Source of the DNA: a virus
IMG/VR virus record: IMGVR_UViG_3300030104_005006
Location: 1-22,182 of that record
Length of the DNA stretch: 22,182 bases
Strand: one strand, 5' to 3'
The translations under genes were made by a program, and so were the position numbers. The notes beneath the pieces are model-generated. The model was not told the origin of the DNA and ran no database searches. It saw nothing but the letters and a program-made list of their open reading frames with translations. This document shows, one piece after another, positions 8,383 through 21,940 of the stretch (positions are counted from its first letter, which is position 1; each line of letters begins with the position of its first letter).

Positions 8383-9054
8383 ATGGCCGAAGTCGCAATC
8401 GCCGCATCACTCATCCAGGCATTTGGAACTATTCAGCAAGGCCGGGCGACTGATGCGATGTATAAGGCGCAAGCGCAGCAAACGCTTGTTCAGTCTCGTA
8501 GTCAGGTATTGAACTCTCGACAGCTTGAGCTCCAGCACCGAGAAAATGGCGTTAAGGTGCTTGAGCAAATGGTTAAAGACCAGGCGACAATAAACGCGCG
8601 AGGTGCGGCTGGCGCGTTAGATCCATTCAGCGGATCGCTCGGCAATTTGATGACGGTAAACCTCGATCAGGGTTATCAGGATTTCACCGTCCAGAAGGAT
8701 AACGCATTTATAGAATCTCAAAACCAGACCATCATTCAGAAATCGGCTGAGCATCAGGCAGCAATATATAGAGCCGCCGGGAAGCAAGCTAAAAAGTCAG
8801 CAATGTTTTCAGCCGTTACAAGCGTTGGGATGTCATTTGCTAATTATGGCATGATGGGCGGGCCTGGAGGCAAGTATTCGCTGTTTGGTTCCCCTGGCCC
8901 GGCGCCAACAATTCCAGGGGCCGGAGGAAGCATGAGCTATAGCGGCTTTGGCTCGCTTAGCCAGCCAGCGGCCGCACGGTCATTTTCTTCAAGCTTCGGT
9001 AGCCTTAATCCATCCGGATCAATGGGTAGTTATGGTCGGAGAGGGTTTTACTAA
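8383..9054 (+). CDS. Internal virion protein B-like (T7 gp14-like)
   Basis: A 223-aa protein that starts directly after the nozzle stop. The pattern is that of gp14-like ejection proteins: a helical start (IAASLIQAFGTIQQGRATDAMYKAQAQQTL), then a long polar helix, the conserved INARGAAGALDPFSGSL(G) segment (residues about 71-87), and more helix. The C-terminal third is low complexity, rich in Ser, Gly, Phe and Tyr, with FGS(L/P) repeated (about residues 167-212). In T7, gp14 is ejected first and forms the outer-membrane part of the DNA channel. Its TAA overlaps the next ATG (TAATG). Position between the nozzle gene and the larger ejection genes supports the assignment. Confidence 0.75.
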   Translation: MAEVAIAASLIQAFGTIQQGRATDAMYKAQAQQTLVQSRSQVLNSRQLELQHRENGVKVLEQMVKDQATINARGAAGALDPFSGSLGNLMTVNLDQGYQDFTVQKDNAFIESQNQTIIQKSAEHQAAIYRAAGKQAKKSAMFSAVTSVGMSFANYGMMGGPGGKYSLFGSPGPAPTIPGAGGSMSYSGFGSLSQPAAARSFSSSFGSLNPSGSMGSYGRRGFY

Positions 9055-11258
9055 TGGCACCAAAATTCCCCATTTATCAGCGCCAAGGCCAACTTAACGC
9101 CCGCATTATGACGCCGCCGGACATCGATCAAGCGGCTTTAAGGGAAACGCGCAAAGGCTTTGCCGAGCTAAGCCAACGCGCCGAGCAAGTTCAAAATTTC
9201 GCTTTTAAGCGTGCGGGCGAAACGGCAAAAGCAGAGGGGCAAGCGGCTGGCTCGCAAAACCCCGAGGCTGTCCTTGCGCAATATCAAGGCAAAGCGCCGA
9301 CCGACATTTACGGAAAGGCCGCGTTCAATGCCGCAAATGCAATAGGCAGCGTCAAGATTGAATCGGCCGCCCGCGAGGCCATTGGCAACGCCTACATCGA
9401 AGCAAAGAAAACTAAGCAAGACCCTAACGATTTCCAGGCAAGTTTGGGTGCGATTATCAACGGCTATACCGCGCCGCTCGATGACATGGACCCGCTGACC
9501 GCTGCAAAGACGCGGGCTAAACTTGAGTCTTATGCAAGGTCGGCTTTCCTAGATCGCTCGGGCGATGCACTTAAAGAGCAACAGAAAGAGCTCGACGGCC
9601 AGGCGCTTTCGCTTCTCGAGACGAGCCTCGAGGAAATTGATCTAATGGCGCAAGCGGGTCTGCGCGGTGGCGATCGAGCACTCGCGGATAAACTAAAGTT
9701 ATATGAAGATAGTCAAAGAGCTCTTGGCCGAAGCGCCAAGCAAATAGCCGCTGACAAAGCGAAGATGCGCGACCGTTATCATATCTCGCGTGCGCGCCGA
9801 GAATTTCGCGACGCAAAAGATAAGACTGCCTGGTTAAAAAAGTTTGGGGAAGATCGAAAAACGGGCACCGGCACGGCGCGCGGTCTTGATGATAACCGCA
9901 TCGAAAGTTTAACCAATTCTTTTGAGTATGAAGTAAAGCAAGGCGACCGGCTGCGCAGTGCTTCAATTGCTGGAATTAAATCAGAGATCAAAGACAGTTT
10001 TAAAGTTTTAAGTAAAAATGGCTTTGTATCAAATGAGCGCATAAATCAACTGCGCGCAAAAGCCGAAGATCTCGGCGATAAAAATTTAATTCAGAGCGTT
10101 GCTTTGCTCGAGAAAGAACAACAAGAGCTTGGCGACATTATGATCGGCGGTAGCGTTGCAATCCAAGAAGCGGCCGACCGCGCCAATGCGCAGATCGAAG
10201 CACTCCGCAAGGCGGGGAAAGACACGCCCGTCAATTTGCTCGATAAACAAAAACGGTTGCAGTCGCTTGCCGAATCAAGGCGACGCGCCGAAAAAGAAGA
10301 TCCGCTCGCCGCTCTTTCGCGAAGTCACGGCGCCGGCACTCCGCCAGAGCTTAGCATTTCGGACATGACAATCCCCGACAAGATGCGCGACGCGATCCAG
10401 GCAAATGTAAATGCGAGCCGTCTTTACGGCGTTCCGCCCGTTTACCTAACACAAGATACAATTGCGAAGCTCAAGGAAACGCTTTCAAAAACCAGCACCG
10501 ATTTCGATCTTCAAGCGGCAATTGTTTCGAGCATCCAAAAAGCGGCGGGCGACAAAGCACCCGCAGTCTTTGCGCAAATTGCCAGCCAGACCGAGGCAAC
10601 AGATCTCGCGCACATCGGCAGCATAATGAAACCAGAATTAATGATGGAATATTTTAAGGGCCGCCAAGCACTCGCGTCTGGGTCAGAGGTAAATGAAGTA
10701 TTAGCGGGCGAGATGAGTGCGGGCCTTAATAAGTTTATTGGCGGCGCGCTTCGGCGAAAGCCTGGGCTTATAGGCGACCTCGAGGCCACCTCTAAGGCAG
10801 TCTATATAGCGCGATACGGCAACTTAGAATGGAATAAAGAAAAATATAACAATATTTTGCATGAACTTGTCGGGGGCAGCCGTGCCGGAGACGGCGCAAC
10901 AGGTGGCTTAATTGAGTTTGATAAAGAGACTATTATTTTACCCCGCGATTTTCCGCGTGATGAGGGTGAATTTAAAACGGCCTTACAAGGCATAACCGAT
11001 AGCGGATTGCGCAGTGTGCTTGAAGAACAAGGCGCGCCAGTTTTCATAAACCCGCGCACCAACGAGCCACAACAAATTAACGCGCAAATGTTAAAAGGCC
11101 TTAAGCTAATGCCTTACGGCGCTGGTCTTTATGTCTTGGCAGATAGTAGCGGAAATCTCGCGGCCTCCGGAGATCTTCGCACCCTTCCGGACGGCTCAAC
11201 TTTTTATGAAATGCGCCAAAGCCCTTACGTTCTTGACTTTTCGCGAGTCACAAAATGA
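9054..11258 (+). CDS. Internal virion protein C-like (T7 gp15-like)
   Basis: A 734-aa protein, similar in length to T7 gp15 (747 aa) and in the same position. It is almost wholly alpha-helical and highly charged, with many Lys/Glu/Gln/Ala runs. The start has the 'PIYQRQGQLNARIMTPP(D)IDQAALRE' pattern seen in gp15-like proteins. No signal peptide, zinc site or enzymatic motif is visible, and I see no lytic transglycosylase motif. In T7, gp15 forms the periplasmic tube of the ejectosome together with gp16. The start at 9054 overlaps the preceding stop, and its stop overlaps the next ATG (ATGA, 11255). Confidence 0.72.
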   Translation: MAPKFPIYQRQGQLNARIMTPPDIDQAALRETRKGFAELSQRAEQVQNFAFKRAGETAKAEGQAAGSQNPEAVLAQYQGKAPTDIYGKAAFNAANAIGSVKIESAAREAIGNAYIEAKKTKQDPNDFQASLGAIINGYTAPLDDMDPLTAAKTRAKLESYARSAFLDRSGDALKEQQKELDGQALSLLETSLEEIDLMAQAGLRGGDRALADKLKLYEDSQRALGRSAKQIAADKAKMRDRYHISRARREFRDAKDKTAWLKKFGEDRKTGTGTARGLDDNRIESLTNSFEYEVKQGDRLRSASIAGIKSEIKDSFKVLSKNGFVSNERINQLRAKAEDLGDKNLIQSVALLEKEQQELGDIMIGGSVAIQEAADRANAQIEALRKAGKDTPVNLLDKQKRLQSLAESRRRAEKEDPLAALSRSHGAGTPPELSISDMTIPDKMRDAIQANVNASRLYGVPPVYLTQDTIAKLKETLSKTSTDFDLQAAIVSSIQKAAGDKAPAVFAQIASQTEATDLAHIGSIMKPELMMEYFKGRQALASGSEVNEVLAGEMSAGLNKFIGGALRRKPGLIGDLEATSKAVYIARYGNLEWNKEKYNNILHELVGGSRAGDGATGGLIEFDKETIILPRDFPRDEGEFKTALQGITDSGLRSVLEEQGAPVFINPRTNEPQQINAQMLKGLKLMPYGAGLYVLADSSGNLAASGDLRTLPDGSTFYEMRQSPYVLDFSRVTK

Positions 11259-13834
11259 CCTCGCTATTCGAGACAAGCCGCTCGGATTTTTTAGGTAGCG
11301 CCTGGCAGCCGATGACAGAGGGGCCGGACGCCTCGCTCGCCGACTACTACAACGCAGCCGAGCAAAGATATGGCCGGGCTTATCGCGCAACTAGCTTTGA
11401 GTATGGATTGAAACTTGAGCTCGAGCCAATTCTCAAGCGCGCTAAAGAAGCGGGATATAAAGCTGGCGCGTCACTTCCGTTAATTGGCGGCGACGGCAAC
11501 CCAGCCGATTGGTTGCTCGGCGGATCCGATACAAAGGATCACGGGCAAAAGATGTTTGAGCATCACCTCGAGCGCCTCAATAATTTTATGGTCGAAAATA
11601 ATCTTGGGGAAGCTGTTACGCTTGACGCTTTAAAAAGCGCCGTAGATAGCAAAGCCGTTGAAGCTGAAACGACGTATGAGGATATATCAAGCGATTGGAT
11701 GACAACGATCATTGCCGAGGCTGGAGCTGCGATACCGCATTTCTTTGCTGACTTGTTTGCTTCCGGCCCCGGCGGTCCAGCTACAGCGGTCATGGGCGCT
11801 AAGTGGAAGGCGCTCGGAAATGCGTCGCAAAAGTTTTTAAGCACCGGCACCGCGTTGAGCGTTGCGCGCGTCGCGGCAATTGATGCCCTGATCGGCGGGG
11901 GGCAAGAACTGTATTTGCAGGCAGGCATAAAAGAGTGGCGTAATAAGGTTGGTATTAAGCACGATTATGGCGACATGGCGGCGGCCGTTGGGTTAGCCGG
12001 TGTTGCATCCGGCGTGCTGCGCGGAGGCGGAACGTCGGGAGTGGTTGCTGGAAAAGCCGGGCGTGATGCGCTTTTCCCGGAGCGCGCTCTCGGCCGTGAG
12101 ATGCTCGAGCAAGTCGGATCGTCACCAATGGCGGTTCGTCTTGAAGGCGTGCGCGATAACTTGCGTAAAAAGCTTCATACTATGACGCATCAAGAATTGC
12201 GCGATGGCTTTGCGGCGCTCGAGCAAGCTGGTGTACAGATTCCAAAAGTTGCCAGGGGTGCACTAAACACTCTGGAGCGCGAAGCCAACGCCGCCGAAAT
12301 GTCGCCGTTCAAAGTAGATGACCCGGCGGCATTGTCCGAAAGCAACGAGAGAATTAACGCAGAGGTTATTAACATTCTCGCGCAGGGCGAAAAACGCATC
12401 GAAATGCAACCGACCACACGCGAAGTCGATGAGCTCGATGTGCACCATTACGACAACCTCGATCAAGAAATCTACAGATTTAACCCGGAAGAGATCGAGG
12501 TCGATGCGAAGACCTTCCAATTTAAATCCGGCATCGATGAGCGCGGCATAGTTTCGGGGCACCGGCTCGAAAAGGAGACGCGTTGGGATCCGGCGCTCTC
12601 GGGCACGATCACCGTGTATGAATACGCGAATGGACAAAGGTTTATCGCGGATGGACACCAGCGGCTCGGGCTCGCGCAGCGTATCCAAGCGAATGATCCG
12701 AGCCAGGAAATCAAGATCTATGGCCGCCTGATTAAAGAGACAGACGGCCATACCCCAGAGGACGCGATGATCGACGCGTCGCTGGTCAATATCGCTAACA
12801 CGCCACTCGGCGACGAACAGATGATTATCGACGCGGCGAAGGTAATGCGGATTCGACCGGAAGCGTTGAAGGCGAAGCTCCCGCCGCGCTCGCAGTTCGT
12901 GCGGCGGATCTATGATCTGGTGGAACTATCAAATGAGTCGTTCCAGCTTGTCATAAACGGCATTGTCCCGACCGACCACGCGGCAATCGTCGGGCGCCTG
13001 GTAAAAGATCCAAGCAAACAGGAGGCAATCCTCCGCGTCCTCAAAGACACCGAACCGAGCAACCTGACGCAAGCCGAGGCAATCGTGCGTCAAGCGATGG
13101 ACACAGAATTTACTGTGACCGCTCAAAGCACGTTATTCGGGGAGGAAATGCTGGTCGAGTCCCTCTTTAAAGAGCGGGCCCGCATTCTCGATGAGACGAT
13201 CAAAATGCTGCGCAAAGATCGCGCCGTGTTCAATTCCCTAGTTGAAAACCAGCAACGCATCGAGGCTAGTGGCAATAAACTTGAAACAACCCAAAACGCA
13301 GCAAAGGCGCAAACAGATGGCGAAGCGATCCAAATCCTCCAAATACAAGCGAACCGGAAAGGCCCCCTCTCCGACGCGCTCACCGAAGCGGCAAAAGCCT
13401 TCAAAGAAAGCGGACGCGCAGCGCCTTCCGCCCGCGCCTTCGCCGATGATGTCCGAGGAGCAATTGAACGCGGCGATCTCGACGGCATTCCAGAACGCGG
13501 AGAGATCATCGATGTTGATGCTCCACCGCAAATTGATCGCATCGCGGCAAGCCATGTTGAACGGTTAGACGATTTTGCTGAGCCTGGCGGTAAGGGATAC
13601 GAAAATCAAGCGGACTTGCTCGAGCGCGAAGCTGTTGAGATAGCGGAACTAGATGGCGCCGATGATCTGCTCGACATGATGGTCCCTACAGGTGAAAACC
13701 TAAAAGACCCAAACGGAAATAATCTCAAGTCGCCAGACGGCAAAGACATTCCGGAAATGCGCAGCGTCGAAGATATATTTCGCGAGATTGAGCAAGATAA
13801 GTCGATGCTCGATAGACTAAAGGATTGCGTGTAA
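11255..13834 (+). CDS. DNA-ejection protein with a ParB-like (DdrB-ParB, polyvalent-type) module
   Basis: An 859-aa protein in the T7 gp16 position. Residues about 1-280 look like an ejection-protein N-terminus: helical, then Ala/Gly-rich segments around 150-270 that could meet membrane. From about residue 400 a ParB-superfamily module appears. It has an EIEVDAKTFQFKSG approach, then ITVYEYANGQRFIADGHQRLGLAQR with the ParB-type GxxR motif as G467-H-Q-R470, and 'SLVNIANTPLGDEQMI', which matches the ParB E/N-rich segment. A helical part follows with PPRSQFVRRIYDL and GIVPTDHAAIVGRLVKDPSKQ. The next parts (TLFGEE...ERARILDE, then RKGPLSDAL at about 701-709) recall the segments that trail ParB domains in phage polyvalent proteins such as P1 DarB. 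No lytic transglycosylase is seen. It probably enters the host with the DNA; DNA or CTP binding is inferred. The TAA overlaps the next ATG. Confidence 0.75.
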   Translation: MTSLFETSRSDFLGSAWQPMTEGPDASLADYYNAAEQRYGRAYRATSFEYGLKLELEPILKRAKEAGYKAGASLPLIGGDGNPADWLLGGSDTKDHGQKMFEHHLERLNNFMVENNLGEAVTLDALKSAVDSKAVEAETTYEDISSDWMTTIIAEAGAAIPHFFADLFASGPGGPATAVMGAKWKALGNASQKFLSTGTALSVARVAAIDALIGGGQELYLQAGIKEWRNKVGIKHDYGDMAAAVGLAGVASGVLRGGGTSGVVAGKAGRDALFPERALGREMLEQVGSSPMAVRLEGVRDNLRKKLHTMTHQELRDGFAALEQAGVQIPKVARGALNTLEREANAAEMSPFKVDDPAALSESNERINAEVINILAQGEKRIEMQPTTREVDELDVHHYDNLDQEIYRFNPEEIEVDAKTFQFKSGIDERGIVSGHRLEKETRWDPALSGTITVYEYANGQRFIADGHQRLGLAQRIQANDPSQEIKIYGRLIKETDGHTPEDAMIDASLVNIANTPLGDEQMIIDAAKVMRIRPEALKAKLPPRSQFVRRIYDLVELSNESFQLVINGIVPTDHAAIVGRLVKDPSKQEAILRVLKDTEPSNLTQAEAIVRQAMDTEFTVTAQSTLFGEEMLVESLFKERARILDETIKMLRKDRAVFNSLVENQQRIEASGNKLETTQNAAKAQTDGEAIQILQIQANRKGPLSDALTEAAKAFKESGRAAPSARAFADDVRGAIERGDLDGIPERGEIIDVDAPPQIDRIAASHVERLDDFAEPGGKGYENQADLLEREAVEIAELDGADDLLDMMVPTGENLKDPNGNNLKSPDGKDIPEMRSVEDIFREIEQDKSMLDRLKDCV

Positions 13835-16305
13835 TGGCTTTTGATGAATGCGTCATTAATGGGAATGCTGAAGGGGCTATTACTAACGAACAGGCGCGCT
13901 ATGCCCGCGACTTGTTTGAACAGAACCGCGCCGACATGATCGAGGAGCTTGGCGAAGAAGGTGCGGCCGCAGCAGCCGCCCGCGAAACATTCGATCAATT
14001 AAAATACGAGGCTGCGCGCAAAAGACAAAATTCATTGCTAGCGATTAAACGATTCAAAATCCTCAATGAACGCTTGAAAAACACAACCGGCCTTGTGACG
14101 GGCAGCGCCCAGCGGCCAGGCCTAGCGATGCAATCAATGGTCGCAATTGATGAGTCGATGAAGCGTTTCGATTCCAATTTGCATTCGACCTACGAGGCAA
14201 CCAGGCGCACGGCATTATCGCGGTTCAGTGACGGGCTTCGTGAAAACCGTCAAACAATAACCGGGCAACAAGGCCGCGCTGAGCAAAACGATCTATTGAA
14301 AGAAATCTTTGGCGAAGACACGGGGCTCGCGTCGGCGAAGCTAATCGCGGAGCAATGGAAAGAAACGGCCGAATATTTACGCCTTCGCGCCAACGCGGCG
14401 GGCATGGCAATCCCGAGCCGTAAGGACTGGCACTTGCCACAAACACATAACAGCACCTTGGTTCGCGAGGCGGGTGCACAGGATTGGGTTCGATTTCTCG
14501 ATGATAAGCTCGACCTTGAAAAGATGGTCAACGAGAAAACCGGCCGCGCATTTACAAAAGAAGAACTTGAGCTCGCGCTGCGTGAAGTACATGAAACAAT
14601 TGCTACAGACGGCCTAAACAAAATCAAGCCAGGGCAAACCGGGCAACCGGCCTCGCTTGCAAACCGGCGCATAGATCATCGATTCTTGGTATTCAAGGAC
14701 GCCGATACCTGGATGCAGTATCAAGAGCGTTTTGGGGATCCGGACGTTTTTAACACGATGATGTCGCACATAGACTCTATGTCGAAGGATATCGCGCTGC
14801 TGGAAACCTTTGGCCCAAACCCCAATCACACAATCGACGCACTCAGGATCGAGGCGCAGCGCATTGCGAATGCCGACGGCCGCAAGGCGCAAGCGGCATT
14901 AACCGCTGATGAGTTTCAATTCAAAACAATGCTCGAGCTGTTCACTGGCGAGGGAAATATTCCGGCGCGCGCTTGGTTGGCAAATACCGGCGGAACAATC
15001 CGAAATACTTTGCAAGCGTCTTTGCTTGGTGGTGTCCCGGTTATCGCAATACCGGGCGATTTAAATACGAGTCGGATCGCCGCACAATTGGCCGGTATTC
15101 CTGTTAATAGAATTATACGCCGAGCGTTCTCGCAATTTATCGCGCCGCTTAGCGCCCAAGAAAAGGCACAGTTCGCCGTCAAGTTAGGGCTCGGCGCTGA
15201 CAACTGGATGAGCCTCGCACAAGGTCAGGCTCGATTTTTTGGCGAAGTCAGCGGCCCGGAGATCACGCAACAAATCAGCGATAAGGTTTTGCGCGGTGTT
15301 GGCTTAAGTCACTGGACGCAAGCGGCCCGTCAAACCTTTGGCATTGAGTTCCTCGGATGGCTTGGCGACCAGGCCGGACGCAAGTTCAACGACCTACCCG
15401 ATGCGACGCGCAACACGCTCGAGAAATACGGCATAGGATCCGACCGCTGGGACATAATCCGAGCCAGCAAGCTCGAGGATTACAAAGGTAACAAGTTCGT
15501 GCGTCCCACCAACATTGAAGACCGCACGGATCTCAAGCCAGGGCTCGGGCGCGAGATCGCGACGCAGATACTAACGATGATCGAGCAAGAGACAACGCAA
15601 GCGGTGCCCCAGGCTACATTAAGGTCGCGGGCGTTTCTGCGCGGTGGCTCAAAAAAGGGCACAATAGGGGGCGAGATCATTGAGGGCTTTGCCCAGTTTA
15701 AAAGTTTCCCGACCACCATTATTCAAAACAACATGCTCAGATATATGACCCTCGAGGGCTGGGGAAATAAGGTTCAATATGGCCTGGATTTCATGGTGAC
15801 GATGGCCGTTGCGGGGGCACTCGGATTGCAAGGCCGGGAAATGCTGAAAGGTCGCGACCCGCTGGATATGCTTGATCCTAAATTTTGGGGTAAAGCAATG
15901 CTCACTGGCGGCGGCCTTGGAATTATTGGTGATTTCTTATTCGCTGAGCGTAATGAATACGGCCGAGGCCTCGGCGGAACAATTGCCGGGCCTCAGGTTG
16001 GAATGATTAATGATTTTTTAAACCTTACAATCGGCAACGCTTATCAACTTAGCGCGGGTGAAGATACAAATTTCGGTCGAGAGGCTGCGACCTTTGCTCA
16101 ACGGTATATGCCGGGATCAAGCGCCTGGTTTGCCCGGCTCGCACTCGAACGATTGCTCTGGGACAATTTGCAAAAGATGGTGGATCCCGAAGCAGATCGG
16201 CGCTTTAGGAGATACGAACGCAAGCGATACAAAGAGTTTAATCAACGACACTGGTGGGCACCGGGCGACAGTGCACCGGAGCGGGCGCCCGAGTATTCTG
16301 GATGA
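13834..16305 (+). CDS. Large internal virion protein (gp16-like, second part)
   Basis: An 823-aa protein following the ParB-bearing protein. The start chosen is ATG 13834, where TAATG overlaps the preceding stop and AAAGGA lies 9 bases upstream. A TTG nine bases earlier would add only three residues and sits on top of the ribosome-binding site. The N-terminal 400 residues are helical and charged. Residues about 650-720 contain hydrophobic, glycine-rich segments (DFMVTMAVAGALGLQG; AMLTGGGLGIIGDFLF) suited to membrane insertion, and the C-terminus is basic (RRFRRYERKRYKEFNQRHWW). This fits the inner-membrane end of a T7-type ejectosome, where gp16 acts. T7 gp16 is one 1318-aa chain; here the role may be split between this protein and the 859-aa one. 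No catalytic motif was recognised. Confidence 0.68.
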   Translation: MAFDECVINGNAEGAITNEQARYARDLFEQNRADMIEELGEEGAAAAAARETFDQLKYEAARKRQNSLLAIKRFKILNERLKNTTGLVTGSAQRPGLAMQSMVAIDESMKRFDSNLHSTYEATRRTALSRFSDGLRENRQTITGQQGRAEQNDLLKEIFGEDTGLASAKLIAEQWKETAEYLRLRANAAGMAIPSRKDWHLPQTHNSTLVREAGAQDWVRFLDDKLDLEKMVNEKTGRAFTKEELELALREVHETIATDGLNKIKPGQTGQPASLANRRIDHRFLVFKDADTWMQYQERFGDPDVFNTMMSHIDSMSKDIALLETFGPNPNHTIDALRIEAQRIANADGRKAQAALTADEFQFKTMLELFTGEGNIPARAWLANTGGTIRNTLQASLLGGVPVIAIPGDLNTSRIAAQLAGIPVNRIIRRAFSQFIAPLSAQEKAQFAVKLGLGADNWMSLAQGQARFFGEVSGPEITQQISDKVLRGVGLSHWTQAARQTFGIEFLGWLGDQAGRKFNDLPDATRNTLEKYGIGSDRWDIIRASKLEDYKGNKFVRPTNIEDRTDLKPGLGREIATQILTMIEQETTQAVPQATLRSRAFLRGGSKKGTIGGEIIEGFAQFKSFPTTIIQNNMLRYMTLEGWGNKVQYGLDFMVTMAVAGALGLQGREMLKGRDPLDMLDPKFWGKAMLTGGGLGIIGDFLFAERNEYGRGLGGTIAGPQVGMINDFLNLTIGNAYQLSAGEDTNFGREAATFAQRYMPGSSAWFARLALERLLWDNLQKMVDPEADRRFRRYERKRYKEFNQRHWWAPGDSAPERAPEYSG

Positions 16306-20126: not shown

Positions 20127-20456
20127 ATGGAAGTCGCTGATATGAGGCTACTGCTCACGCTCGGCGGTATGGTTGTTTCGATTGCGTCGGCGGCCGCAAT
20201 CGTGAAGCAAAAACTATCAACGGTTATCGAACAATTAACCGACATCGAGAAGCGTCTCCGCGTGCTCGATCAGCGTGTCGATAAGTCGGAGCTCACCAGT
20301 CAGCGCGTCGATGTTCTCGCGTCTATCTTATCACCGGAGCGGCGCCAGGTCCTCTTTGAAAGGATCGCAAAACAGGAGGAGCGGCTGCGCGCGGCCGAGA
20401 GCGAGATCGACCACCTGAGAGACATGCACAATTCCAAACATCCGAGGATCGAATGA
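20127..20456 (+). CDS. Membrane-anchored coiled-coil protein, possible inner-membrane spanin
   Basis: A 109-aa protein starting directly after the preceding stop, with GGGGGTG upstream. Residues about 7-26 (RLLLTLGGMVVSIASAAAIV) are one transmembrane helix near the N-terminus. The rest is a long charged coiled coil (about 28-101, heptad-like Leu/Ile with Glu, Arg and Gln). This N-in topology with a periplasmic coiled coil is that of an inner-membrane spanin such as lambda Rz. Similar small proteins in phages are also annotated as holins or left hypothetical. The adjacent endolysin, and a small lipoprotein three genes on, make a two-component spanin plausible. Its stop overlaps the endolysin start (ATGA). 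Confidence 0.65.
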   Translation: MEVADMRLLLTLGGMVVSIASAAAIVKQKLSTVIEQLTDIEKRLRVLDQRVDKSELTSQRVDVLASILSPERRQVLFERIAKQEERLRAAESEIDHLRDMHNSKHPRIE

Positions 20457-20842
20457 CAGCTTGGCAATTTAAGAATTTCACTCGAGCCGAGTTTGCGTGT
20501 TCGTGTTGCGATAAGTCGGAGATCGATGTTGATTTCGTCGCAACGCTTCAGCGGATCCGCGACAAGTTCGGAAAGGCGATGCCGATAACATCCGGATATC
20601 GGTGCCCGGTGCACAATGCAAGCGTGAGCTCGACCGGATTACGCGGCCCGCATGTGACCGGGAAAGCGGCCGATATCGCGGTGATGGGCGAGGACGCGCT
20701 CAAGGTGCTACGGATCGCGCTCGAGGATCCGGCTATTACGGGGGTTGGAATTGCGCAGCGCGGGGCGCCAGCTACCAGATTCCTGCATTTAGACGCCCTC
20801 GATCCTGGCAACTATCCACGCCCTACCGTTTGGAGTTATTGA
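20453..20842 (+). CDS. Endolysin, M15A-type peptidoglycan endopeptidase
   Basis: A 129-aa protein that is a compact peptidase M15A domain without a cell-wall-binding domain, as usual for Gram-negative phages. The start FKNFTRAEFACSCC is typical of the family. The zinc-binding pattern is clear: SGYRCPVHN at 47-55, then H67-V-T-G-K-A-A-D74 (HxxGxAxD), then FLHLD with H112. H67, D74 and H112 are the expected metal ligands. Members hydrolyse peptide bonds in the peptidoglycan stem (for example L-Ala-D-Glu or D-Ala links); the exact bond is not decidable here. There is no signal peptide, so release depends on a holin. GAGG is 5 bases from the start. Confidence 0.9.
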   Translation: MTAWQFKNFTRAEFACSCCDKSEIDVDFVATLQRIRDKFGKAMPITSGYRCPVHNASVSSTGLRGPHVTGKAADIAVMGEDALKVLRIALEDPAITGVGIAQRGAPATRFLHLDALDPGNYPRPTVWSY

Positions 20843-20843
20843 T

Positions 20844-21263
20844 ATGATTGGAATACTCGGGCCCGTCTTAGGCAAGTTGGGCGGTGAACTTATAGACAAC
20901 CTGTTCGAGACGGAAGAGGAAAAGGCAAACGCGAAAGCGAAGCTCGTAAACCTAGACCTTAAACGGTACGAGATTCAAATGTCTGCCATCGTTGCCGAGG
21001 CTCAAAGCAAGGACGGATGGACGAGCCGCGCCAGGCCATCGTTTCTCTATGTTATGTATCTGGTTATTATTATGTGTTTCGTTGGTGGCATAATTGGCAT
21101 TTGGTTTCCAGATGATGTGGCAATGGCCGCCGCAAATATCGCTGATTTATTAGCCGCAATTCCAGATGCATTATGGACATTGTTCGGGGCTGGATATCTA
21201 GGCTATAGCGGCGCTCGTTCATGGGACAAGCATCAAACCCGCAAGAATCAAAAAGACCAGTGA
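20844..21263 (+). CDS. Holin of 3TM type (gene-transfer-agent holin family)
   Basis: A 139-aa protein directly after the endolysin. An amphipathic N-terminal part (1-54) with an acidic helix (FETEEEKANAKAKL) precedes the family-defining segment SKDGWTSRARPSFLYVMY (55-72). Hydrophobic helices follow at about 67-88 (ending GGIIGIWF) and 96-123 (NIADLLAAIPDALWTLFGAGYLG), and the tail is basic (129-139). This pattern matches the GTA_holin_3TM family first named for release of Rhodobacter gene transfer agents and common in alphaproteobacterial phages. It would permeabilise the inner membrane and release the M15 enzyme. The next start overlaps its stop (GTGA). Confidence 0.85.
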   Translation: MIGILGPVLGKLGGELIDNLFETEEEKANAKAKLVNLDLKRYEIQMSAIVAEAQSKDGWTSRARPSFLYVMYLVIIMCFVGGIIGIWFPDDVAMAAANIADLLAAIPDALWTLFGAGYLGYSGARSWDKHQTRKNQKDQ

Positions 21264-21409: not shown

Positions 21410-21762
21410 CAGCGCCAAACGCGAGATCGACCGGCAACATAAATCAACAGCGCCGGGTCGGCGCGATCTGTGAGACAATCGCCACCGAGTATTTCTTTCA
21501 ACGCGGCTATTTTGTTTTTCATCCCTGGTTTGGCATTGGCCCGGTGGACTTAATTTGCATCAAGGCTAACCCGCCAGAAATACTTTTACTCGATATCAAA
21601 GCGGATAACAGACGCCTCATTAAGGGACGCAATGTACCAACCAGGATCACGCGCATCTTAACCAAACATCAAAAGCGGCTCGGCGTAAAAATCTGTTACG
21701 TCAATCCACAGACGCGAGAGGTGCACATGGCACGGCATGATCGGGCAAAGCAATTCCCTTAG
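21406..21762 (+). CDS. PD-(D/E)XK-fold nuclease, Holliday-junction-resolvase-like
   Basis: A 118-aa protein. The start is GTG 21406, overlapping the lipoprotein stop (GTGA). The motif layout fits the PD-(D/E)XK superfamily: helix with Glu23 (GAICETIATEYFFQRGY), then GPVDLI with Asp48, then LLDIKAD with D63-I-K65, and a later helix containing Gln89 (TKHQKRLGVKICYV). The 'E ... VD ... DxK ... Q' pattern and size resemble small endonucleases of the Hjc/resolvase type. Lying at the end of the late operon, it may trim branched DNA before packaging, as T7 endonuclease I does, or degrade host DNA. Its 3' end overlaps the convergent gene by 62 bases. Confidence 0.78.
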   Translation: MTAPNARSTGNINQQRRVGAICETIATEYFFQRGYFVFHPWFGIGPVDLICIKANPPEILLLDIKADNRRLIKGRNVPTRITRILTKHQKRLGVKICYVNPQTREVHMARHDRAKQFP

Positions 21763-21940
21763 TTCCCTTGCGGTCGGTCAGTATTCCCTCGGCGCGCATG
21801 TTGCGCACCGTCTCATAGACCGTATTCCGGTGCACGCCTAGCTCGCGAGCAAGGTCTGTTTGCGTCGGGTTATACCCATTCGCTTCAACAAACACGGCGA
21901 TAGCATCCAAATACTCGCGTTGTCGCTTTGAGATTTTCAT
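21701..21940 (-). CDS. LexA-like winged-helix DNA-binding protein
   Basis: A 79-aa protein on the - strand. Residues 1-65 match the N-terminal DNA-binding domain of LexA-type repressors: KRQREYLDAIAVFVEANGYNPTQTDLARELGV, a recognition helix HRNTVYETVRNM, and a wing ending GTKGIAL. There is no autocleavage (Ser/Lys peptidase) domain, so it would not respond to RecA as LexA does. Its ATG overlaps the stop of the upstream exonuclease gene (ATGA). Its last ~20 codons lie opposite the end of the nuclease gene. It may regulate early or late phage transcription or a host LexA-type operator; the target is unknown. Confidence 0.8.
   Translation of the reverse strand: MKISKRQREYLDAIAVFVEANGYNPTQTDLARELGVHRNTVYETVRNMRAEGILTDRKGTKGIALPDHAVPCAPLASVD

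Follow-up and report, generated by a model that had tools for sequence, protein, structure and literature searches.

A ParB/Noc-type unit in a predicted ejection protein of a marine podophage

Gene order and the ejection cassette

The DNA analyzed here, which we refer to as the window, is the 22,182 bases at positions 1-22,182 of virus record IMGVR_UViG_3300030104_005006, and its source is a marine virus of bacteria. The window encodes, in order, a terminase, a portal (phrog_332), a T7-type scaffold (PF05396 match, 3.9e-21), a capsid, and tail tubular proteins A and B. These are followed by a small internal virion protein, by proteins of 734, 859 and 826 amino acids (aa), and by tail-fibre genes. 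The small internal virion protein (8383..9054, + strand, as are all features of the cassette described below) occupies a gp14-like position and matches the internal virion protein family phrog_418 (2.9e-5). The 734-aa protein (9054..11258) is assigned by synteny as an ejection protein in a gp15-like position. Downstream of it, and upstream of the gene for its cassette partner, an 826-aa virion structural protein (13825..16305; phrog_684, 5e-180), lies an open frame with a stop that encodes the 859-aa protein (11255..13834), the carrier of the ParB-like module described here. The order from tail tubular A and B through the internal virion protein and the 734-like protein to the ParB-carrying and 826-like proteins is kept in about 100 loci, as far as each contig reaches.

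A place after tail tubular A and B, beside other internal proteins, is that of the ejection proteins of podophages, and the 859-aa protein is very probably a virion or ejection protein. The best explanation of the locus, which as a whole we consider about evenly balanced, is that the phage is short-tailed and has three large ejection proteins, the middle one of which is this protein. A sequence-only reading of this DNA had put the protein in the T7 gp16 position. The cassette order is indeed T7-like, and T7 gp16, a proposed cytoplasmic DNA clamp, is like the 859-aa protein in its place in the cassette (PMC8954989), but no similarity to T7 gp16 itself was found. The N-terminus of the gene product and its downstream neighbour match proteins of the phiVC8/phiV10 type. 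Homology to T7 gp16 by fold was rejected: the full-length model, in which the N-terminal part is of lower confidence, gave no match to it above noise.

Several other genes in and around these cassettes could be read. In two loci the 734-like ejection protein (L002:40-2985 and L007:4040-6985) has a C-terminal extension that by eye resembles a lytic transglycosylase; Pfam found no match in these extensions, among them that of L002, where the upstream protein is 982 aa long. Toward the end of the window are an M15 peptidase, likely an endolysin (20453-20842, 1.6e-14), directly after it a GTA-type holin with three transmembrane segments (20844-21263, 8.6e-19), and, at the window end, a short LexA/Crp-type helix-turn-helix protein on the - strand (21701-21940).

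The ParB-like module of the 859-aa protein

The 859-aa protein begins with an ejection-protein region (residues 1-400, 11255..12454) that is all-helical in the model and has a profile match to phiVC8_p18. It is followed by a ParB-type N domain (residues 405-515, 12467..12799), delimited by the AlphaFold model, Foldseek, the ParB profile alignment and conservation, with the motifs FQFK at 421-424, GHQR at 467-470 and VNIAN at 511-515. In the profile alignment GHQR (12653..12664) is the counterpart of ParB GERR (P-motif 2). The segment SLVNIANTPLGDEQ (residues 509-522, 12779..12820) is the counterpart of ParB ENxQR (P-motif 3), of which only N512 is kept. The open frame, GHQR and SLVNIANTPLGDEQ had been named in the sequence-only reading, correctly in each case. 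A ParB-type M domain with a shortened helix-turn-helix (HTH) comes next (residues 516-622, 12800..13120), as judged from helix order, alignment and Foldseek. In the AlphaFold model it has seven helices in the same order as in ParB, and in the profile alignment it is collinear with the ParB stretch 'LRLL..LP..v...l..G.ls.GHARaLl'; the first helix of the HTH is short.

Where ParB has its C-terminal dimerisation domain, the HTH domain is followed by a family-specific region that is helical in the model (residues 623-740, 13121..13474) and has no similarity to the ParB profile used. It opens with an LFG hairpin, in which LFG is strongly conserved and G629 invariant, and it is part of the same family unit as the ParB-like domains; we regard it as a candidate dimerisation or partner-binding part. 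The sequence-only reading had seen trailing segments of polyvalent proteins here. Such segments do occur in relatives, but Pfam found no domain in the 859-aa protein, and thus no named polyvalent segment, and residues 623-740 belong to the module's own family. The aligned proteins end in a C-terminal tail (13514..13831), in the window ...MLDRLKDCV, with the pattern ..MLDRLxxC-x. Its cysteine, C858 (13826-13828), is present in at least 90% of the 45 aligned proteins. A cysteine near the C-terminus is also found in the module-free proteins that occupy this slot in phiVC8, phiV10 and YA3, and it may be a packaging or partner signal.

ParB proteins are DNA clamps that bacteria use for chromosome sorting. 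Residues 405-622 almost certainly form a unit of this type, with the two domains of ParB and Noc, a nucleotide-pocket domain and an HTH domain. An AlphaFold model of residues 382-753, built with 62 non-redundant family members, has a pLDDT of 90.1 and a pTM of 0.80, and its best 29 PDB matches in Foldseek are all ParB, Noc or Spo0J, including parS-bound (6t1f, TM 0.55), CDP-bound and CTPgammaS-bound structures. The top TM-scores (0.5-0.55) are to Noc, parS-bound ParB and Spo0J, the probability is 1.00 to Noc and ParB, and the alignments of the best matches cover about 220 columns and span both domains. The full-length model of the 859-aa protein, made from a different alignment and with lower confidence in its N-terminal part, again matched ParB and Noc. 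The clear fold matches to ParB, Noc and Spo0J, together with profile and synteny, bear out the earlier proposal that an ejection-cassette protein carries a ParB-superfamily module, and place the module closer to ParB than had been claimed.

Sequence searches gave less. No Pfam model recognised ParB in the 859-aa protein or its relatives, and phmmer and a profile search against PDB sequences gave nothing meaningful, so that fold comparison and profile-profile alignment were needed to make the link. Against a profile of 30 bacterial ParB sequences, the module scored 30.5 over 149 collinear columns. The controls were lower: the maximum was 24.8 in 60 column shuffles of the ParB profile and 20.5 among 12 unrelated phage families, and reversed profiles scored 16-17. 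The alignment is in register from GHQR/GERR through KN/EN and the HTH to the ParB 'LP..v...l..G.ls.GHARaLl' stretch. The formal hhalign probability between module and ParB is low (13-23%), and the sequence link therefore rests jointly on the in-register alignment, the controls, the PHROG matches and the fold. Both the family member L116 (1.7e-5) and a bacterial ParB (6.9e-29) match phrog_1033, 'ParB-like partition protein'. Residues 412-731 of the window's protein match phrog_10691 (6.5e-48) and the C-terminus of phrog_21 (1.1e-17). The phrog_10691 proteins (3,900-aa phage proteins, e.g., of Ruegeria phage 45A6) and the C-terminus of the phrog_21 portal belong to the same module family, although these carriers differ from the 859-aa protein and the PHROGs give the module part no function. 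The bare motif GHxR is not diagnostic, as it occurs three times in window ORFs of at least 90 aa versus about one expected. The module itself is far beyond chance, given its recurrence with the same boundaries in relatives, the phrog_10691 match and the ParB fold.

The ParB-type fold is the one point in favour of a plasmid-like partition system that would serve a lysogenic or plasmid state. The gene, however, lies within a late structural block. There is no parS-like site within the 22,182-base window, and a ParA-type ATPase (PF13614), present in all control genomes, is missing from the 12 related phage records. These absences contradict a partition system, to which we give almost no credence.

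DdrB-ParB, the family proposed in the sequence-only reading, was rejected as well. PF18763, the family of phage P1 DdrB, shares with the module the ParB/Srx superfamily and a place among late phage genes, and its products are thought to be injected (PMC5512222), but its motif is ESGNGR versus DGHQR in the module. Neither the window module nor the 62 members matched PF18763 at E<=1 among the families listed. The PHROG matches of the module and of DdrB-ParB are disjoint, with the DdrB-ParB domain hitting only other families, and the module, like canonical ParB, includes an HTH domain. A profile comparison also detected no similarity between the two, but with a DdrB set of just 4 sequences this is a weak test, and the distinction is thus carried by the disjoint PHROG and Pfam results. 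The survey of polyvalent proteins that describes DdrB-ParB also refers to peptidase fusions of 'a distinct ParB domain' (PMC5512222), and this domain and the module could be one family.

Residues of the nucleotide pocket

The module keeps part of the ParB pocket. The phosphate contacts tested in C. crescentus ParB include Q58, R60, E102, R103, R104, E135, N136 and R139; CTP binding is lost or weakened in R60A, R103A, R104A, N136A and R139A, and Q58A, E135A and E102A bind without hydrolysis (PMC8367383). In the module, the counterpart of Q58 is Q422 (62 of 62 members) and that of R60 is K424 (60 of 62), both paired by motif order as the profile alignment starts downstream of them. H468, Q469 and R470 correspond to E102, R103 and R104, with R470 present in all 62. 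E135 is replaced by V511 in the window's protein and by K in 49 of the 62 members, N136 is retained as N512 in every member, and R139 is replaced by N515 in the window's protein and by E in 48 of 62.

GERR of P-motif 2 is thus found as GHQR or GHNR, or as GRHR in distant members, with G and the last R retained, and of ENxQR in P-motif 3 only the asparagine survives. Because GH[QN]R served as a seed in collecting the relatives, its conservation throughout that set is in part built in. Homologues found without the motif read GHQR (SI2, 45A6), GHNR (S31C1, P-SCSP1g) or GRHR (L161, L162); G467, R470 and, in P-motif 3, N512 are kept in all of them and H468 is not. The proposal of a ParB-like module withstood the check that the sequence-only reading had set for it, as both a ParB fold and, apart from H468, the conserved residues of GHQR were found. 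The sequence-only reading was right to see a ParB-like segment in SLVNIANTPLGDEQ, but the segment is a local variant in which only N512 is invariant; most relatives read KNIAEG(S/T)G there.

Compared with the ParB, Noc and Spo0J clamps (ParB_N, PF02195, followed by an HTH), the module is alike in having an N domain and then an HTH-containing M domain, and in keeping Q of QPR, G and the last R of GERR, and N of ENxQR. It differs in that the counterparts of E102, R103, E135 and R139 are replaced, the C-motif is not identifiable, the HTH is shortened, and the unit is embedded in an ejection protein and comes without ParA or parS. Nucleotide or phosphate binding by the retained Q/R/N pocket is plausible from these residues. 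The use of CTP had also been suggested, but both acidic residues for hydrolysis are gone, which leaves a CTPase cycle unsupported, and CTP hydrolysis appears unlikely from the residue comparison with C. crescentus ParB (PMC8367383).

The likeness to chromosomal ParB and Noc in both domains raises the possibility of host takeover by mimicry, in which the injected unit would compete with host ParB or Noc, ParA or SMC and disturb the nucleoid. However, its pocket motifs differ from those of host ParB, its HTH is shortened and a ParA-contacting motif was not identified in it, and we consider such mimicry very improbable.

Relatives, module-free phages and possible roles in genome entry

Scans of viral contigs found at least 524 relatives of the module and those of bacterial contigs 39, and the relatives read out share a unit of about 330 residues with the same boundaries. 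Extra domains occur in the longer relatives: a Zeta toxin is present in 9 of 45, a PBECR1 RNase in 2 and an M15 peptidase in 1, and giant relatives have ART-PolyVal, helicase and LPD38 domains beside the module. Fusions with Zeta toxin, PBECR1, ART-PolyVal, LPD38 and helicase are companions typical of polyvalent proteins (PMC5512222), and the kinship with polyvalent phage proteins that the sequence-only reading had proposed is supported by the relatives that carry them. The effector fusions that mark a polyvalent protein are absent from the window's copy, in which Pfam found no second effector domain.

The carriers of the module are varied. Zeta-toxin fusions into ejection-slot proteins occur in many marine podophages, with the kinase domain after the ParB-like module (e.g., L021:9030-10304, L022:9009-10274 and L124:8254-14613). 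A Mu-type portal (L120:6357-8918; Portal_Mu, 2.9e-96) has the module at its C-terminus, at residues 517-846, and this type of fusion probably explains the 'portal' label of phrog_21. In L107:8732-17167 the module protein, an ADP-ribosyltransferase domain and the 826-like ejection protein form one protein of 2,812 aa. A cyanobacterial contig encodes a stand-alone module of 363 aa (L118:9908-10996) adjoining an FtsK/SpoIIIE-like protein.

The slot is older than the module in it. Phage records with a homologue of the 826-aa neighbour number 112 and include phiV10, SPN1S, VP5 and phiVC8, and the gene upstream of the 826-like gene encodes 390 aa in phiVC8, 600 aa in phiV10 and 640 aa in YA3, with no ParB module in any of these three proteins. 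In a profile made from 95 N-termini, phiVC8_p18 matches the N-terminal part at 2.5e-22. Thus phiVC8 p18 and phiV10 p19 (epsilon15 gp16-type) share with the module proteins the place upstream of the phrog_684 protein and a near-terminal cysteine, and p18 is homologous to their N-terminal part, but they are shorter (390-640 aa) and lack the ParB-like module. In MEP301 (56% portal identity) and EXVC031P the module was not detected and the slot protein matched the N-terminal part in neither phage. The occurrence of the same slot without the module in related phages indicates that the module is an accessory insert in an older ejection-protein slot, dispensable for ejection as such.

Parts of these proteins may also have been exchanged. 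Mean identities over 39 complete cassettes were higher for the module (60%) and the 826-aa protein (51%) than for the N-terminal part of the module protein (30%) and the 734-aa protein (29%). These loci were picked by module similarity, so selection explains part of the high value for the module. The window and L007 share 90% identity in the ParB part and 36% in the N-terminal part, a contrast that suggests such an exchange.

The main rival to a DNA clamp is a polyvalent-type early effector: the injected unit would sense or degrade a nucleotide or nick DNA, and so blunt defence or arrest the host. Iyer et al. proposed an early-effector role for DdrB-ParB, and ParB-like domains with NTPase or nuclease activity have been cited (PMC5512222), which lends weight to this idea, as do the Zeta toxin, PBECR1, M15 peptidase, ART-PolyVal, helicase and LPD38 domains beside the module and the ability of the slot protein to work without it in related phages. 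However, the unit brings an HTH domain, which effector ParBs need not have, the acidic catalytic residues of a ParB NTPase are lost, and the window's protein carries no second effector. We consider an early effector rather unlikely.

Alternatively, the unit could have a structural role in the virion, binding the end of the packaged DNA at the portal vertex or scaffolding the internal core, which would need no action in the cell. Its carriers are portal-vertex proteins (ejection proteins, Mu-type portals with a C-terminal module, L120). Yet assembly proceeds without the module in related phages that have the same 826-aa neighbour, and the polyvalent effector fusions point to delivery, making a structural role distinctly unlikely.

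Starting from what was computed (the fold, the family, the cassette position and the absence of the module from the same slot in related phages), the explanation that we favour, at about an even chance, is that the module is a DNA-binding clamp, delivered by the virion, that acts on the incoming genome. The ParB/Noc-type unit would sit as an insert between an N-terminal tunnel or membrane part and the C-terminal tail, with the family-specific helical region following it. We infer that the 859-aa protein is packaged on the portal and passes into the cell before the DNA or along with it, and that its ParB-like unit would end up on the cytoplasmic side, where it could bind or enclose the incoming DNA. 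There it might act as a retention clamp or ratchet, comparable to the C-terminal part of T7 gp16 on the first ~850 bp. The clamp may close when a ligand binds in the retained Q/R/N pocket; a CTPase cycle is unlikely. That clamping DNA is the main task of the module seems to us slightly short of an even chance. Several findings count against a clamp: the N and M domains together are acidic overall (27 K/R versus 34 D/E), the HTH is shortened, the ParB residues that bind CTP (R103, R139) and those that hydrolyse it (E102, E135) are replaced, and the module also occurs on Mu-type portals and giant polyvalent proteins, where an ejection-clamp role is less obvious. Still more tentatively, and on balance doubtfully, we speculate that the family is an unnamed, widespread branch of ParB-type clamps in phage ejection machinery, delivered with the genome and closing on incoming DNA without a CTP hydrolysis cycle, as a ratchet or as a handle for fused effectors.

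If the module acts as proposed, incoming viral DNA may meet its own clamp. This bears on the way in which the leading end of phage DNA is secured and drawn into the host. The C-terminal part of T7 gp16 is DNA-binding, lies in the cytoplasm and, as inferred from mutants, clamps the genome near ~850 bp; the review of ejection proteins that describes it does not mention a ParB fold (PMC8954989). T7 gp16 is a proposed clamp of the leading end, and a ParB-type unit would supply a clamp of this kind with a fold that is already known. The two-domain unit in an ejection protein of many marine podophages is a concrete candidate, for which ParB assays already exist, and it would extend ParB-like switches to virion proteins beyond the DdrB family. 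In the open-access literature we found nothing that joins ParB with an internal virion protein, an ejectosome, or ejection and CTP, and the sole relevant work was the polyvalent-protein survey (PMC5512222).

The module also occurs in cultured phages. The cryo-EM structure of the Prochlorococcus phage P-SCSP1u covers the capsid and portal-tail, and the text of that paper contains nothing on internal core proteins (PMC10575957). The size and position of the genes led the authors who described the P-SCSP1 group to suspect internal virion proteins, but they could give the genes no annotation (PMC9860041). We found the module in 17 Prochlorococcus MED4 phages of this group, including P-SCSP1u, which gives a first domain reading for a gene that the authors left without annotation. 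In P-SCSP1u the protein with the module is probably gp27, judged from the gene offset. In P-SCSP1g the module lies in a 2,563-aa protein encoded behind the tail tubular genes.
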